Shown: positions 5,268 through 22,216 of the stretch, piece after piece | How the letters are laid out: each line of letters opens with the position of its first letter | Numbering within the stretch: the first letter of the stretch is position 1 | Translations under genes and position numbers: made by a program | From: a virus | Reading direction: 5' to 3' (one strand) | DNA length: 26,335 nt | Virus record (IMG/VR): IMGVR_UViG_3300033153_012539 | Coordinates: 1-26,335 of that record | The notes under the pieces: generated by a model | What the model was told of the DNA's origin: nothing | What the model saw: only the letters and a program-made list of their open reading frames with translations | Databases searched by the model: none

Positions 5268-5780
5268 TTATTCTACAAGTTTTTTGAACTTTTTTAGGTC
5301 TGGCGTTGTTTTTTTTCAATCCTCAATTTCTTTTAGAGTTTTTCAGCTTTGCAATTTGTTTATATCTGGGATTTTCTTAGTAAGCTCAACGTAAACATTG
5401 TAAGGCATTTGCATTACATCGTCATACTTAGTCCCAACATAAAATTTTAGAAATAAAGCTAGAGAAAGAAGTGCGTGAGTTTCTTTCTTCTTTTTTTTCT
5501 TTGACTCTTTTTTTACCTCTTTTTGTTTTTCAATTTTAGAAAAAACTAGGTCGAGAATTACGTTGATCTGAGGCGTGTCTAAATCATCTATTAAATTTAG
5601 ATCAATTTTATTTGCTACAAATATTTTCCTAATTAATAAGTAAATATTTTCATCTGTTTCATTTCAAGAAATATAATCAGAAAAAAACACTATTTCAGTA
5701 GAAACAGCTTTAATTAAATAAAATTTCTTTTTCAATTTTATTAACGAATCTTTACCGACTAAAATTTCTAAATCTTTCAT
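5268..5780 (-). CDS. Putative tail assembly chaperone (gp15-like)
   Basis: 170 residues from ATG 5780, placed between the tail-tube protein and the tape measure, where siphophages encode the tail assembly chaperone. The protein is largely helical and Lys-rich: an acidic/hydrophobic N-terminal half, a Lys tract around residues 93-102 (KKESKKKKKKE), then a helical C-terminus with MPYNVYVELTKKIPDI, similar in feel to gp15-type chaperones. Many phages make a longer form by -1 frameshifting; the Lys tract contains an A-AAA-AAG heptamer, but the -1 frame closes after about 20 codons and no ORF follows the stop, so a long frameshift product is not supported. It starts just after the tube-gene terminator. 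Confidence 0.55.
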
Positions 5781-5795
5781 AAATAAATATTACAA

Positions 5796-5823
5796 TAAAA
5801 AAAGACCCCCGCAAGGGGAGTCT
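5796..5823 (-). terminator. Strong Rho-independent terminator after tail-tube gene
   Basis: On the minus strand a GC-rich stem AGACTCCCC / GGGGGTCT with a four-base TTGC loop is followed by seven T residues. It lies 22 bases after the stop codon of the tail-tube gene and 15 bases before the chaperone ATG. The highly expressed tube protein is often followed by a partial terminator that lowers expression of the tail genes downstream. Confidence 0.9.
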
Positions 5824-5845
5824 AATTTAGTAAATCTAAATAGAT

Positions 5846-6625
5846 TTAAACTACAGATTGTTCATCAGTAATTTTGAAAAGATTTACAGCTGTTGAGCTT
5901 GCGTCTGCTTTTGGGAAAGCAGAAATTGAAACCGGCATATCTGCTGGGTCTTCGTCTTCGTCTCATTGGAAGTTAATAGCTACTCCTTCGCTATTGAAAC
6001 CTTTTAAAATTTCAAGTCTAAAGATTTTTCAATCAGTGTTAGTGTTTGTAAATCTAAATCCTTGAAGGTTTAAGGTTTGGTCAGCGTCTCAGTATTCTAA
6101 AACTTTTGAAGCGTTTGGAGTGTAGTCGTAATCAGCGTCAAGCACTCAAGATTGTGCAGTGATTGGATTAATCCAAGTGTAACCTTCTCAGTCTATAAAT
6201 GCTGAAAAATCTACATCTACATCAATGGGAGTTCCTCAAGCGTCAATTACAATATTTGTAACCTTTGAGTTGTCTCAGTTTTTGTTTGCCAATTTAATTG
6301 GAACATCTTTAGTCCACCCAGTTCAAAGGGCTTCTCAAGTAATATTCACAAGAGTTCAATCAACAATTGAATAAGTAGCGTCTCAGTCAATTAAATTGAT
6401 TGTAGACAAATCGATTTCGTAAAGACTAAAATTAAATTTAGCTTCTGTAATTCTTGATTTTGGAGAAGTTTTTGCGTTTGATCAGATAAATTGTTTGATT
6501 AATTTTGTAACCTCTAGGTTGGCGTCTCTAATCATTCAAATATTTACCCAAGCAGACCCATTAAAAACTTCACATACTCAAGATCAAAAACGGACTGAAT
6601 CCTCTTTTTGTACATTAGTTTGCAT
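5846..6625 (-). CDS. Major tail (tube) protein
   Basis: 259 residues from ATG 6625. Position after the tail-terminator gene and before chaperone and tape measure, size, and a beta-rich composition all fit the siphophage tube protein. Supporting details are an N-terminal segment that reads as a tube-subunit beta sandwich (FNGSAWVNIGMIRDANLEVT), the strand-rich middle with WINPITAQSGVL, and QGFRFTNTNTDGKIFRLEIL near the C-terminus, resembling the KxxRxEI strand of tail-tube folds. The strong terminator directly behind it is typical of an abundant structural gene. No Ig-like C-terminal extension is evident. UGA encodes many of its glycines. Exact family is not identifiable by eye. Confidence 0.8.
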
Positions 6626-6646
6626 AATTTTTTATTAAAATTTGTA

Positions 6647-6865
6647 TTAAGTTTGGATTTTAAATCCAAGTTGTTCTTGTAAGAGTTTTGCGTAAGTTTT
6701 ATCTACTTCAATGATTTCACCCTGCCTTGCTACTTTCATACTTCTTAGTAAAACTTGCTTAGTCACTAACACTTTAACCAAACCGCTTTTGCCTTGCTTT
6801 ACAGCAGGAACAACTTTTTTTAGTTTAGCTTTTGTGCCTTTAGTGTTTTTAAGTGCTTTTTTCAT
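6647..6865 (-). CDS. Small basic protein in head-tail region, unknown
   Basis: 72 residues, with no UGA codons at all, between the tail-terminator and tail-tube genes (19 and 21 bases away). The first 30 residues are very Lys-rich; the rest reads as a small beta fold with VKVLVTKQVLLRSMKVARQG and EVDKTYAKLLQEQLGFKI. That pattern (strand, loop, 'G-E-I-I-E-V-D', then a helix with A-x-L-L) recurs in small phage proteins beside connector genes, but I cannot name the family. A minor tail or neck role is possible from context only. Confidence 0.75.
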   Translation of the reverse strand: MKKALKNTKGTKAKLKKVVPAVKQGKSGLVKVLVTKQVLLRSMKVARQGEIIEVDKTYAKLLQEQLGFKIQT

Positions 6866-16018: not shown

Positions 16019-17347
16019 TTAAATTTTTAAATCGTCAATTTCATTTTTTAAAATCATAACTTTTTCTATAGCTGTTAAATCCTCTTTGTTGGTTTCTTTT
16101 ACGCTTAACTCGTCTCAACCTTCTATTTCGTCTAAATCGTACTCTGACTCATTTCTAGCCTCGTTTGCTGTGATAATTCAAGCGCTAACCATTGAAACTA
16201 AAATTTTAGCTTCTTCAAACACATCTTTTGTGTCAGTTCTTGTAAAGAAAATTTCAACATTTTCTCAGTAAGATTCTGCTAATTCATTTAATTGATCTTC
16301 AAACATTTCTTGAAAAGGATCTATTGTAAAATTATAAAAATTTTCCTTAGCACTTTGCGAAGTAGATTTATTTGAATTATCCGAGTAAAGAATATCGTAA
16401 GGAATTTCAAGGTCGACTAAAATATCCTGCCTCAGTTCTTGCCTCATTGCATTAAACTGAGAAGCGTCTAAATCACTGTCTAAACCTATTTCTCAAATAT
16501 CTCAAGAAATCATAATTGAATTAAAGGCATTTTTTAACCCTTGAGCTTTTTGTTCGTAAAGAGTTTTAATTAAAGCCTTGTCTCCTGTAGTCATTTTTCA
16601 AGATTTATCATAAAGGATTTTAGCTTTCATTGTTCCTTTTTCAAAAAACTTAATAAAATATTGGTCTATCGAAGAAAGCAAAATTAATTGGTCAATACAA
16701 CTCTCAATTTTTGATTTTCAATAATAAGCTGTGTCAATATTTGCCTCTTTAATTAAAATTACATCATTTAAAGCTGGATTTCTTCAAGTTCTTTTTCTTC
16801 CTGTTCAATCGTCTGTAGACACAAGCTCTTGAGCGTTTGCACTAGTTTTTTCGTAAAACTCTTCTTTTTCTATCCTTAGCTCTTCATTTGGCTCATAAAT
16901 ATTAAAATAAGCTTCCTCGGCTCAAACTTTTTGAACTGCTCCCTCTCATCAAGGTAGAAGTCTAATTGTATCTGTAATCATTGGTAAAATTTCAATGATT
17001 TCTCATTTACCATTTTTAATTAATTCAAACCAAGCATTTCAATTTGTATAAATATTTTTTACTCAGTAAGTTACCATTTTCCTTTTTATTTTTTGGAAAA
17101 TTTTTAATTGGTCGTCGCTTAATTGTTCAGAAGTTACTTTAGTATTAACTCCTCAAACCACTTTTTTCATTGATCAATTTACAATAAAAGAACTATTTGC
17201 AACTAGTCAAAGCTTTTGTGGACTAACTGGATATTCAATTACATCAACAGAAAAACCAGTTTCCTCAGTTACTTGTTTTGAATTTTTGTTAAAGTCTGAC
17301 GCTTTAGAAATAACTTGAACAGCTGAAACTTCTTTTTTATTTTTCAT
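16019..17347 (-). CDS. Portal protein (HK97/PBSX-type)
   Basis: 442 residues from ATG 17347, between large terminase and minor head protein. Typical portal features: N-terminal SFIVNGSMKKVVGGV, YGVKNIYTNGNAWFELIKNG (the G-N-A-[WY]-x-E strand) and EIIEILPMITDTIRLLP, then a central domain leading to a long helical region with YYGKSKIESCIDQLILLSSI and DQYFIKFFEKGT (the 'Y-G-x-S-x-x-x-x' and 'F-x-x-G' blocks), FNSIMISGDIGE, RQELRQDILVDLEIPYDILY, and TIDPFQEMFEDQLNEL. The C-terminus is acidic and helical. It forms the dodecameric DNA gate and terminase dock. A 53-base gap separates it from the terminase stop. Confidence 0.95.
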
Positions 17348-17400: not shown

Positions 17401-18801
17401 CTATAAAATATCTACACTATTACTGTTGCATCAAGAGCCGTGTAAAAGATTTCAAACCAAACAATCCATTTCGTCATCGTGTTCTACATCTGGAAAAGTT
17501 GTAAGTTGAGTAATTAAATTTTCTTGATCTAATCCAGGCTTAAAATAAACTTCTCAAAATTCTATTTGTCATGCAACACTTAAAAGATTTGTCATTTTAT
17601 CTTTGTGTTGGTGGATTAATTCCATTGGCAAATTTTCTTCACTTCCTAATATTTTTCAAAAGTAAGCGTCTTTGTTTTTTTCGTAATAAATTTTATTTGG
17701 CTTAAATTTTGAGTTTAAAACTTTAATCATTAATTTAGTGTTTGCAGGACTTAACTTATAACCTTTTGAGTGTAAAACATATTTCTTATTGTCTTTAAAT
17801 CACATAACTCAAATTCAAAAGAAGTCAGATTTTTCTTTTGTTTCACTTGCTGGATCAAGCCACATTGTAATAAAATCAAATTCAGGCAAATGTTCCCAGT
17901 ATCTTATCCAATGATCTTTGATTACTGCGTCTTCTGAACTAAGGGCGATGTTCCTAAACTCTTGATTAAAAAGAGCTGTTCAAATTTTCTTTCTTCTTTT
18001 TATTAAATCCTCCTTGCTCCACATATCAGTCCACAAAATATTTTCAAAATCACTAGTACAAGCTTCGTATTCAATAATGTGCCAATTCTTTGTCTCTTTA
18101 ACATATTTCACCATACACATTGATCAAACAACTGTTCAAAGAATTGCAATTTTTCCTCAAGGCAAAAGAGTGTTGAAAAGAGAGGTAAAAAACCAAATTC
18201 TAGCTTTTTCTACAATTGTTTTATTTAGAACATCTTTGTTTTCTTCAAAATCATCTACAATAATCCTTTTTGGTCTCCTTCAACGAATATTTCACCCCTT
18301 TGTCATTGTTTCTATCGCCTCTCAGTTCAAAAGCTCAAGGTGTTTCATTCTCCACTTCTTGGCTCAAAATTCTTCTTTTGTTTTTTTATCTTGAGTTGGT
18401 ACAAGAACTCAAAAAACAGAATGAATTAATTTATTTGTTTCTAATTCTTTTCTAATTTTTCAAATTCACTCCTCTCAAAGTCCAGCAGGTGCGATGTAAA
18501 GCTGGCTTCAATAAATTTTATAACAAATAGCGTGTAAAATATCTATTAAGATCGTGGTGGTCTTAGCGTGTCATCTTGGACAAATAATTCACAATGTCTC
18601 GTATTTATCTAAAGCGTCGTGAATCTCTTTGTGAAATTCTGCGTTTTTTTCTCCCTTCCAGTGTTTCAAAAAATAGTCACCAAAAAAAACTTTGTCGTAA
18701 AATCATTTCCAATAAACGTACTGAGTTTTTTCCTCAACAGAAAATCAAATTGTTCCCCGTTGATCTATGCCGGCAATTTGCTCTTGAGTTAATTTAAACA
18801 C
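17401..18801 (-). CDS. terL: Terminase large subunit
   Basis: 466 residues if started at GTG 18801; TTG 18852 would add 17 residues and no ATG is possible. ATPase domain: Walker A-type CPRGHAKTTT at residues 74-83 (its first Gly is UGA) and Walker B RIIVDDFEEN at 179-188. Nuclease domain: MWLDPASETKEKSDFFGIGV from about residue 313, giving the metal-binding Asp of D-P-A, and the late acidic cluster EHDDEMD near residue 450. The layout and length are typical. It motors DNA into the prohead through the portal encoded next. A diverged copy of the AT palindrome lies about 66 bases upstream of the GTG. Confidence 0.96.
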
Positions 18802-18811
18802 TTGACAAGTT

Positions 18812-18916
18812 TTATTGTTTTTTATCTTTTTTTTGATATTCCCCGTGGGCAAAGTTGCTTTTTATTTTTTTAATAGCTTTATTAAGCCAAGTTGTTAAAA
18901 TGCCATAATACCATAT
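18812..18916 (-). CDS. Possible small ORF between terminase genes, no standard start
   Basis: The 114-base gap between small and large terminase genes holds an open frame reading WYYGILTTWLNKAIKKIKSN then FAHGEYQKKDKKQ, ending in TAA just before the terminase GTG. It looks protein-like but has no ATG, GTG or TTG; the first codon could only be ATA (in a TAATA overlap with the small terminase stop) or it could be reached by +1 frameshifting from that gene. Listed as a candidate only. Confidence 0.25.
   Translation of the reverse strand: MWYYGILTTWLNKAIKKIKSNFAHGEYQKKDKKQ
18867..18885. repeat. AT palindrome copy 4 (diverged)
   Basis: TTTTTAATA-GC-TTTATTAA matches the left arm and eight bases of the right arm of the AT palindrome family (17 of 20 fixed positions), then diverges. 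It lies upstream of the large terminase start. Confidence 0.4.
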
Positions 18917-20895: not shown

Positions 20896-20970
20896 TGGAG
20901 CGTCAAGGTCGGAGTTAAACCGCCTCTTTCCCACTGGAAGTGGGCTGTGCTATCGTTACACCACTGACGC
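20896..20970 (-). tRNA. tRNA-Gly (anticodon UCC), CCA encoded
   Basis: 75 bases including a genome-encoded CCA end. Acceptor GCGTCAG pairs with TTGACGC (last pair G-U), discriminator U73 as expected for tRNA-Gly. Anticodon arm GCCCA-CTTCCAG-TGGGA gives U33, anticodon UCC and A37. The T arm is CGG-TTTAACT-CCG extended by GG/CC around one unpaired A. Two standard tertiary bases differ: position 19 is A rather than G and position 56 is U rather than C, which keeps the D-loop/T-loop pair as A19-U56. It decodes GGA/GGG, not the recoded UGA. The first 15 bases overlap the end of the Mom-like gene. Confidence 0.85.
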
Positions 20971-21645
20971 ATTAGTTTTTTCTCAAAGGTACATTCAAGC
21001 ACCTGCTTTTTCAATCTCTGAATAGTTTAAAATTTTGTAATTTTTCTTTAAATTTGGTTTTAGGGTTTTTATGTATCTAAGCATAAATCCTTTTACCTTT
21101 TCCCACCCTGCGTGGTGGTCGTTTAAATATTTGGTTGTTGAGGTGTAGCCTTTTCTTTGCATTTCTGGATTACCTTTGTTAAACCTTAATTGGTGCACTA
21201 TTTCTCAGCTTGGCAATTTAAGTAGGGCAGTGTTTACCTTAATTTGGCTTAAATCAAATCCACTAGCTCTGTAAATTGTCCCGTCTCAACACTGGCAACC
21301 ATCAGCAAAACTTATGATCCATTTTAAGTGGGGCGCTTTTTTCTTTAAAAGTTTAACGCTAATTGCTATCGCCCTGCTTTCTGAATATTTAGGCAAAATG
21401 TCGCTAAAAGCCATTCTGTTCAGTTCGATAAATTCATTCCAGCCAGTGTTTTCGATTAATCAGATTAGCTTAGATTTGTCGGTACTTGGTCAGTAACTCA
21501 TCACACCCCCTAACAATCCTTTGTAAAACACTCAAAAATGAAGCTGTGAATTGTTTACGGCTTTTCAAGAGTAGTGGTGCTTCTGAATAAATTTACTAGC
21601 CACCTTGCTTGGTAAAACCTTTAAAACAATGTCTTTAGCACTCAT
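20956..21645 (-). CDS. Mom-like DNA-modification protein (GNAT-type)
   Basis: 229 residues from ATG 21645, overlapping the ParB-like gene by 11 bases. The order of blocks matches the Mu Mom family: KHHYSG (22-27), GVFYKGLLGGVMSYGP (38-53), ELNRMAFSD (74-82), PKYSESRAIAISVKLL (85-100) and ISFADGCQCGDGTIYRASGF (111-130; compare Y-A-D-x-x-x-G-H-x-G-x-I-Y-Q-A). Mu Mom has a GNAT-like fold and turns adenine into an N6-carbamoylmethyl derivative that blocks restriction; the cofactor is not fully settled. Several glycines in these blocks, such as G27 and G38, are UGA. The C-terminal 90 residues are basic, as suits DNA binding. The final codons and TAA stop lie inside the tRNA-Gly gene. Confidence 0.78.
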
Positions 21646-22216
21646 TTTTAGTGTTGTAAGTTTCTATGATTCTGGCTAGGGCATTTCAATTTGAATTATC
21701 ATTTCAAGTGCCTTCAAAGGCACCTAAGCTTTTACTGTGCAAAATTGCCCTTTGTAATTGCTCGTTTTGAGTCTTGTGAAGCTGAAAAGTTACCGACTCA
21801 ATTTCCGACCTTTCTCAGTCTGGCAAAGCAAAATCTTCGTCAAAATCCTCTTCAAGTTTTAAGTCGTAAAGTTCAGAAAGTTCAAGATCTCAAATTTCAT
21901 CAAGTTCAAATTTAATATTTTCTAGGTCATCATCTGCAAGCTCTGCAATTTTGTTGTCTAAAAGCCTGTATTTTTTAATTTGTACTTCTGTTAGATCATC
22001 TTTAACCACACAAGGAACTTCTTTAATTCAAAGCTTTTTTAGCGCCTGCACCCTTCAGTGCCCTGCAATAATCAAATTATTTTTGTCGATTACTACAGGA
22101 GAATTAAATCAAAATTCTTTAATTGAATTTGCTAAAAGGTTTATTTGTTTCTCGTTATGAATTTTGTTGTTAAATTCATAATTTAAAAGCTCGTCAGTTT
22201 TTTTTAAAGTAATCAT
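21635..22216 (-). CDS. ParB/Srx-like N-terminal domain protein (phage DNA-modification partner)
   Basis: 193 residues from ATG 22216. Residues 8-100 are a ParB-like nuclease domain: NEKQINLLANSIKEFGFNSP, VVIDKNNLIIAGHGRVQALK with the GHGR motif at 52-55, KLGIKEVPCVV, and KYRLLDNKIAE. G54 of GHGR, the first Gly of EFGF and the Gly of KLGI are all UGA; in this gene 7 of 10 glycines are UGA. The C-terminus is acidic then polar. Phage proteins with this domain often sit beside adenine methylases or terminases, and the motif is proposed to bind CTP or act in DNA modification; here the direct partner is the Mom-like gene, which it overlaps by 11 bases. Confidence 0.88.

Follow-up and report, generated by a model that had tools for sequence, protein, structure and literature searches.

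Among the closest described systems is Com-Mom of phage Mu. Mu Mom is said, in work by Karambelkar from 2020, to bind acetyl-CoA and iron. Its product is named alpha-N-(deoxyribosylpurin-6-yl)glycinamide in the title of Swinton 1983, as that title is cited in two later papers (PMC4461284, PMC3874153), and corresponds to adenine plus C2H3NO, so that exactly one glycine residue is added. Ever since the definition of this product in 1983 the identity of the donor has been unsettled, with acetyl-CoA plus iron and glycyl-CoA as proposals; the latter, an acyl-CoA, was suggested for Mu Mom in PMC7824862. In Staphylococcus aureus, FemXAB draws for cell-wall synthesis on a special tRNA-Gly that is poorly used in translation (PMC4810233; PMC6097841). 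Glycine is also carried by a phage DNA base in the CmoX/CmoY cytosine hypermodification, where CmoX has ParB-domain neighbours of unknown role (PMC12783734); this system acts on cytosine C5 and uses carboxy-SAM and an ATP-dependent amide ligase with free glycine, and no tRNA. ParB folds bind CTP, ATP or GTP, the GxxR sequence being the P-motif for NTP binding (PMC12704722). In phage ParB-DNA methyltransferases (phrog_498), a ParB domain is fused to a SAM-dependent methylase, and in Streptococcus phage Javan128, Psychrobacter phage pOW20-A and Verrucomicrobia phage P8625 such genes lie before the terminase genes.

The window analysed here is the whole stretch of 26,335 bases of the viral IMG/VR record IMGVR_UViG_3300033153_012539. 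An earlier note on this DNA had described an overlapping ParB-domain and Mom-like gene pair in a code-25 phage, followed by a tRNA and close to the terminase genes. Both open reading frames are indeed present on the minus strand with an 11-base overlap, and the terminase large subunit and portal genes lie downstream of them (Table 1). The genetic code was also confirmed. Eight Mom residues are encoded by TGA, and seven of these fall at positions with a glycine majority in the Mom alignment (33-40 of 40 rows): four are glycine in all 40 rows and three others in 33-39, the relatives using the standard code. The TGG codons of the gene coincide with conserved tryptophan columns. It is beyond doubt that code 25 holds and that UGA is read as glycine. 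The nearest relative is another code-25 phage (L003, 73-74% identity). TGA is the commonest glycine codon in the window (362 of 564, 64%), yet the sole tRNA-like element there has a UCC anticodon. The family and fold of Mom, its pairing with ParB and the position of both before the terminase genes, a slot occupied in other phages by ParB-methylase fusions, support their assignment as a putative DNA-modification cassette, and the gene order suggests that DNA may be modified before packaging.

Table 1. Cassette features and neighbouring genes in the window
Feature	Position	Strand	Description
ParB_N gene	21635..22216	-	193 aa; first of pair; GHGR (GxxR) P-motif; PF02195, phrog_620
Mom gene	20956..21645	-	229 aa; GNAT fold; PF25680, phrog_1384
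ParB end/Mom start overlap	21635..21645	-	11 bases, read from sequence
tRNA-Gly-like RNA	20896..20970	-	covariance model R2, MFE fold, covariation
Terminase large subunit	17401..18852	-	phrog_38 2.8e-59; context
Portal protein	16019..17347	-	phrog_12 5e-26; context

By sequence and predicted structure the 229-residue protein is a true Mom relative, as the earlier note had supposed. It matched PF25680 over residues 6-205 (E = 2.8e-49, 168 bits against a Pfam cut-off of 27.1), phrog_1384, 'Mom-like DNA modification protein' (8e-41), and the Mu Mom sequence in 8bv8 (phmmer, 2.4e-21). The fold comparison which that note had proposed was carried out on an AlphaFold model (pLDDT 89.6) computed from 42 window and locus sequences. 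Its best structural match was 8bv8, the Mu Mom structure, with 199 residues aligned at Z = 20.9 and 30% identity (Foldseek 8.9e-17), and other GNAT enzymes reached a Z of 13.0 or lower. Residue S90 aligns with S124 of Mu Mom and is invariant in all 42 rows; because 8bv8 is described as the 'inactive mutant S124A', this serine is taken to be essential. The present clade differs from the Mu group in a conserved C-terminal stretch (...GAGMYKG) that is absent from the Mu group alignment rows, and the Mu system differs in having Com upstream of Mom and neither ParB nor a tRNA-like RNA. In Synechococcus phage DSL-LC03 (L097, 2406-3576), Mom overlaps a gene annotated as a type II restriction endonuclease.

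The ParB-domain identity of the first gene was likewise upheld by PF02195 (1.7e-7, 31.6 bits against a cut-off of 26.3) and phrog_620 (3.8e-41); the ParB-methylase family phrog_498 was also matched (1.4e-33). The P-motif could be read directly from the sequence (GHGR within AGHGRVQA). Only the N-terminal domain was matched: TIGR00180 reached 36.6 against a cut-off of 58.45, and the profile search found no match to the HTH and dimerisation domains of canonical partition ParB. A peptide-pattern search with the window protein returned no relatives, the protein being too divergent for patterns. Among its best relatives in phages are the ParB portions of DNA methylases. Since ParB occurs with methylases in the same slot and also neighbours CmoX, it seems to be an interchangeable partner of enzymes that modify DNA late in infection, for which it may play the role suggested below. 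The fused methyltransferases share with the window the ParB domain and the slot before the terminase genes; they differ in that Mom is a separate protein in the window, and among the loci of Javan128, pOW20-A and P8625 an RNA was found only in P8625. One locus (L302, 3962-6528) contains, in this order, ParB, Mom, a second ParB-like gene, the RNA and terminase, so that a single cassette has two distinct ParB genes.

The tRNA which the earlier note had placed behind the pair is present, shares 15 bases with the 3' end of the Mom gene and is tRNA-Gly-like. That note had named it only as a neighbour; it proved to be the third, conserved component of the cassette and the most telling one, as it points to a mechanism that the note had not taken up. 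ARAGORN found no tRNA in the window, and the Rfam tRNA model (RF00005) gave the RNA 27.3 bits against a threshold of 29. In related loci, ARAGORN called a tRNA directly behind Mom, on either strand, which was either a tRNA-Gly or had an anticodon of two bases; RF00005 was passed by one of 20 related loci. The cloverleaf is given by fold and covariation. With the covariance model R2, built from relatives, the window RNA scored 70.3 bits (E = 2.6e-17), and no second real match was found elsewhere in the window. Its minimum free energy fold is a cloverleaf with a bulge in the T-stem (z = -2.74). The RNA has G1-C72, C2-G71, G3-C70, the anticodon loop CUUCCAG, U73, an encoded CCA and a bulged A in the T-stem, and thus no canonical, unbulged 5-bp T-stem. 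In 60 distinct rows 98.5% of the cells were paired and 18 of 20 pairs changed doubly, although this alignment was fitted to the model; more weight is therefore given to an independent count on the 11 founder sequences, in which pairing was 100%, 12 pairs were doubly changed and none of 500 shuffles was as good. The RNAs, mostly missed by ARAGORN and Rfam, form a hidden family tied to Mom. No link between a tRNA and Mom, and no description of this RNA family, was found in the literature searched, which did not extend to preprints and most subscription papers.

The bacterial tRNA-Gly identity set consists of U73, G1-C72, C2-G71, G3-C70, C35 and C36 (PMC9976931). Among 174 distinct elements, G1-C72 was present in 172, C2-G71 in 172, G3-C70 in 161, U73 in 168 and NCC in the anticodon loop in 169, counts that are biased upwards as the search model was trained on such sequences and favours them. 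The full set is carried by 149 of the 174 and by the window RNA. In bacteria, U73 is nearly exclusive to tRNA-Gly and tRNA-Cys, and it shields Gly-tRNA, including non-proteinogenic tRNA-Gly, from DTD (PMC6097841). Other features depart from the canonical tRNA. The T-stem pairs only with one base, nearly always A, bulged out, and the canonical register fails (60% of T-stem cells); a bulge was found in 154 of 174 elements (A in 148) and a canonical T-stem in four. A correctly placed NCC in a 7-base anticodon loop occurs in 85 of 174, with U33 in 42 of these 85, and the D-loop GG is absent in 94 of 174. Control tRNA-Gly genes from host genomes had the canonical T-stem in 20 of 21 cases and U33 and the D-loop GG in all 21. 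EF-Tu grips the canonical 5-bp T-stem, and glycyl-tRNA synthetase normally reads the tRNA-Gly anticodon; the anticodon has been lost in the Bradyrhizobium elements. As UCC cannot read TGA, the codon for 64% of the glycines in the window, an RNA serving there as a translation helper would be the wrong tRNA. As judged by these positions, the RNA keeps glycine identity and not what translation needs, and it is probably a dedicated, non-decoding tRNA-Gly.

A survey of ParB-Mom adjacency, as the earlier note had proposed, was performed with two IMG/VR scans and one GTDB scan, which yielded 221 distinct Mom loci. ParB adjoins Mom in 158 of the 188 loci with enough 5' flank. The ParB-Mom pair is therefore real and widespread in phages, and by itself it is not new in the sense that the note had intended. 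The RNA adjoins Mom in 183 of the 214 loci with enough 3' flank, across many host phyla; the other 31 have no recognised adjacent element. Where both flanks are known (181 loci), ParB and RNA occur together in 125, ParB alone in 27, RNA alone in 28 and neither in one, so that the trio of ParB, Mom and tRNA-Gly-like RNA recurs in well over a hundred phages. Many exceptions are tandem Mom loci, with ParB before the first copy and the RNA after the last. With covariance models, the first made from 11 ARAGORN-found elements and the second from 51, 59 of the first 83 loci were positive; a further 16 or 17 followed, the match in a plasmid locus of Bradyrhizobium (L084) being only marginal (E = 0.025). 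Among 67 genome loci, 54 had an element, counting one that is probably an ordinary host tRNA (L120), and among 71 additional viral loci, 66 did. The R2 score alone does not separate the family from host tRNA-Gly genes, which reach 59 bits, and for this reason position and the T-stem bulge were used as criteria. Tandem Mom paralogues were seen in phages and prophages of gut Clostridia (L100, L102-L104, L106, L108-L110, L114, L115, L181, L187, L199, L200, L213, L214), and several RNAs of these loci are exceptions without the usual T-stem bulge.

The RNA starts a median of 14 bases before the Mom stop codon and usually sits between Mom and the terminase genes; in one locus (L054) it lies in front of ParB instead. 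A homology search with single sequences for terminase beside Mom was positive in no more than 53 of 163 loci, and this weak test was not relied on. The RNA was on the Mom strand in 157 elements and on the opposite strand in 33. On a FastTree phylogeny of Mom with weak deep nodes, its strand relative to Mom switches 17 times, at least nine of them on well supported branches, which indicates that the link outlives rearrangement and that the RNA does not work in cis as part of the mom mRNA. A standard-code counterpart of the window is found in Psychrobacter phage vB_PmaS_Y8A (L083), in which ParB (5391-6002) overlaps Mom (5995-6648), followed by two tRNA-Gly-like elements in tandem, both unannotated, and then by the TerS, TerL and portal genes. 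Its authors called ORF16, the ParB gene, a partition protein and left ORF17, the Mom gene, unnamed (PMC10434257). Y8A also contains a second, distant Mom (L278, OQ059336.1 39393-40157), annotated as a methylcarbamoylase, without ParB or RNA.

The association has limits in both directions. Thirteen distant Mom loci, including those of Mu, D3112-like phages, PAN70, PX29, Elizabethkingia, Porphyromonas and Enterococcus, had no RNA, the one model match among them being an ordinary tRNA-Trp; with 0 of 13 positive, it was rejected that the RNA accompanies Mom everywhere. These distant genes, Mu and 12 others, have neither RNA nor ParB and form a natural contrast; in Mu the donor would then be host Gly-tRNA or something else. 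Conversely, P8625 (L274) has a clear RNA (1995-2071, 61 bits) behind its ParB-N6/N4 methylase gene, overlapping the annotated P8625_04, and no Mom gene was found in its genome. No RNA was found at its 14 nearest ParB-methylase relatives. Altogether, 22 ParB loci without Mom were examined, in most of which a methylase fills the slot before terminase, and 21 had no RNA, P8625 being the exception; this ruled out that the RNA simply accompanies ParB. A second apparent exception, L302, was dismissed as a Mom gene is present there. On the chromosome of Bradyrhizobium valentinum (L147; 4725-5729 and 5654-5724), Mom and an element with a decayed anticodon are flanked by a sulfatase gene on one side and an RND pump gene on the other, and no phage genes, ParB or terminase are near. 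That the RNA is kept beside Mom at this place argues that it is tied to Mom and not to packaging.

The best explanation of these observations, which we regard as reasonably probable, is that ParB, Mom and the dedicated tRNA-Gly-like RNA form a three-part cassette in which the glycyl-charged RNA would serve as the glycine donor of Mom. Late in infection, the host glycyl-tRNA synthetase would charge the RNA, and the altered T-stem and anticodon arm would keep it off EF-Tu and the ribosome. Mom, with its GNAT fold, would move the glycyl group from the RNA to N6 of adenine in phage DNA by a normal aminoacyl transfer, perhaps via the essential serine; the glycyl amine may then attack C6 and migrate, giving the glycinamide in a Smiles type rearrangement. 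ParB would bind DNA and nucleotides and, as a partner of Mom, recruit it to phage DNA, as it may do elsewhere for DNA methylases, and the modified DNA would be packaged and resist host nucleases. What points to this scheme is an RNA that is built to be chargeable with glycine, is altered at its EF-Tu and ribosome contacts and lies beside a GNAT enzyme whose product in Mu bears one glycine residue. The frequency of the RNA-Mom link, the invariant S90, the UCC anticodon that does not read TGA, the contrast with the distant Mom genes and the established use of tRNA-Gly by FemXAB argue in the same direction. The Staphylococcus system is an analogy in function: a GNAT-like transferase uses a special tRNA-Gly that is withheld from translation, with peptidoglycan as the target instead of, putatively, DNA adenine. 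We know of no DNA modification that takes its glycine from a tRNA. With slightly more reserve, we also lean towards the wider claim that an aminoacyl-tRNA is a substrate for DNA modification, i.e., that a phage-encoded, non-decoding tRNA-Gly is charged by the host, Mom glycinates N6 and a rearrangement follows.

Against the use of the RNA as donor stand Mu Mom, which lacks the RNA, the two CoA-based proposals, the RNA of P8625 without Mom, the 31 loci without an element and the anticodon loss in Bradyrhizobium. Part of this would be accounted for if the RNA belonged to the cassette in another capacity, as a guide or scaffold for ParB and Mom, a decoy against host defences that cut tRNAs, or an RNA of the packaging locus. 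The usual position between Mom and the terminase genes, the P8625 case and the missing anticodons fit such a role, which we nevertheless consider unlikely, if deserving attention: 21 of the 22 Mom-less ParB loci lack the RNA, L147 has it beside Mom with neither ParB nor terminase near, and a decoy or scaffold gives no reason for U73 and the full glycine identity set. It is less probable still that the locus is an ordinary Mom cassette using a CoA-type donor, either acetyl-CoA with iron or glycyl-CoA, and that the phage tRNA-Gly merely aids late-gene translation. Both donors have been proposed for Mu Mom (PMC8072286, PMC7824862), which acts without a phage tRNA, and tRNAs are frequent in phages. 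A translation tRNA would, however, not be expected to be glycine-specific and always placed by Mom in 183 of 214 loci, to bear a T-stem bulge and lack U33 and the D-loop GG, unlike host tRNA-Gly, or to leave unread the main glycine codon of the window.

The two remaining alternatives concern single components. ParB could be unrelated to modification and partition a plasmid-like prophage, as ParB proteins often partition DNA and the Y8A paper says so for its homologue (PMC10434257). No ParA or other partition gene was recognised near the window ParB, DNA methylases in this slot carry the same ParB domain as a fusion, and ParB domains neighbour the CmoX cytosine modification (PMC12783734), which together make partition very improbable. 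The tRNA-like stretch might also be an attP site with part of a host tRNA gene. The 3' ends of tRNA genes are common at attP in temperate phages, but the element here forms a complete cloverleaf in which 18 pairs change doubly, has a bulge absent from host tRNAs and lies in mid-genome beside terminase and not beside integrase, and Y8A has two copies in tandem; we give this explanation hardly any credence.

The conserved tRNA-Gly-like partner points to glycyl-tRNA as the donor of Mom and makes the donor question directly testable. If glycyl-tRNA is the donor, a charged tRNA would feed DNA modification as charged tRNAs do in cell-wall and lipid modification, and an RNA family that has largely escaped ARAGORN and Rfam would gain a function. 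The code-25 phages of Patescibacteria would then share an anti-restriction chemistry with phages of ordinary bacteria. It would also answer the donor question for Mom as a whole and establish DNA modification that depends on tRNA as a class.
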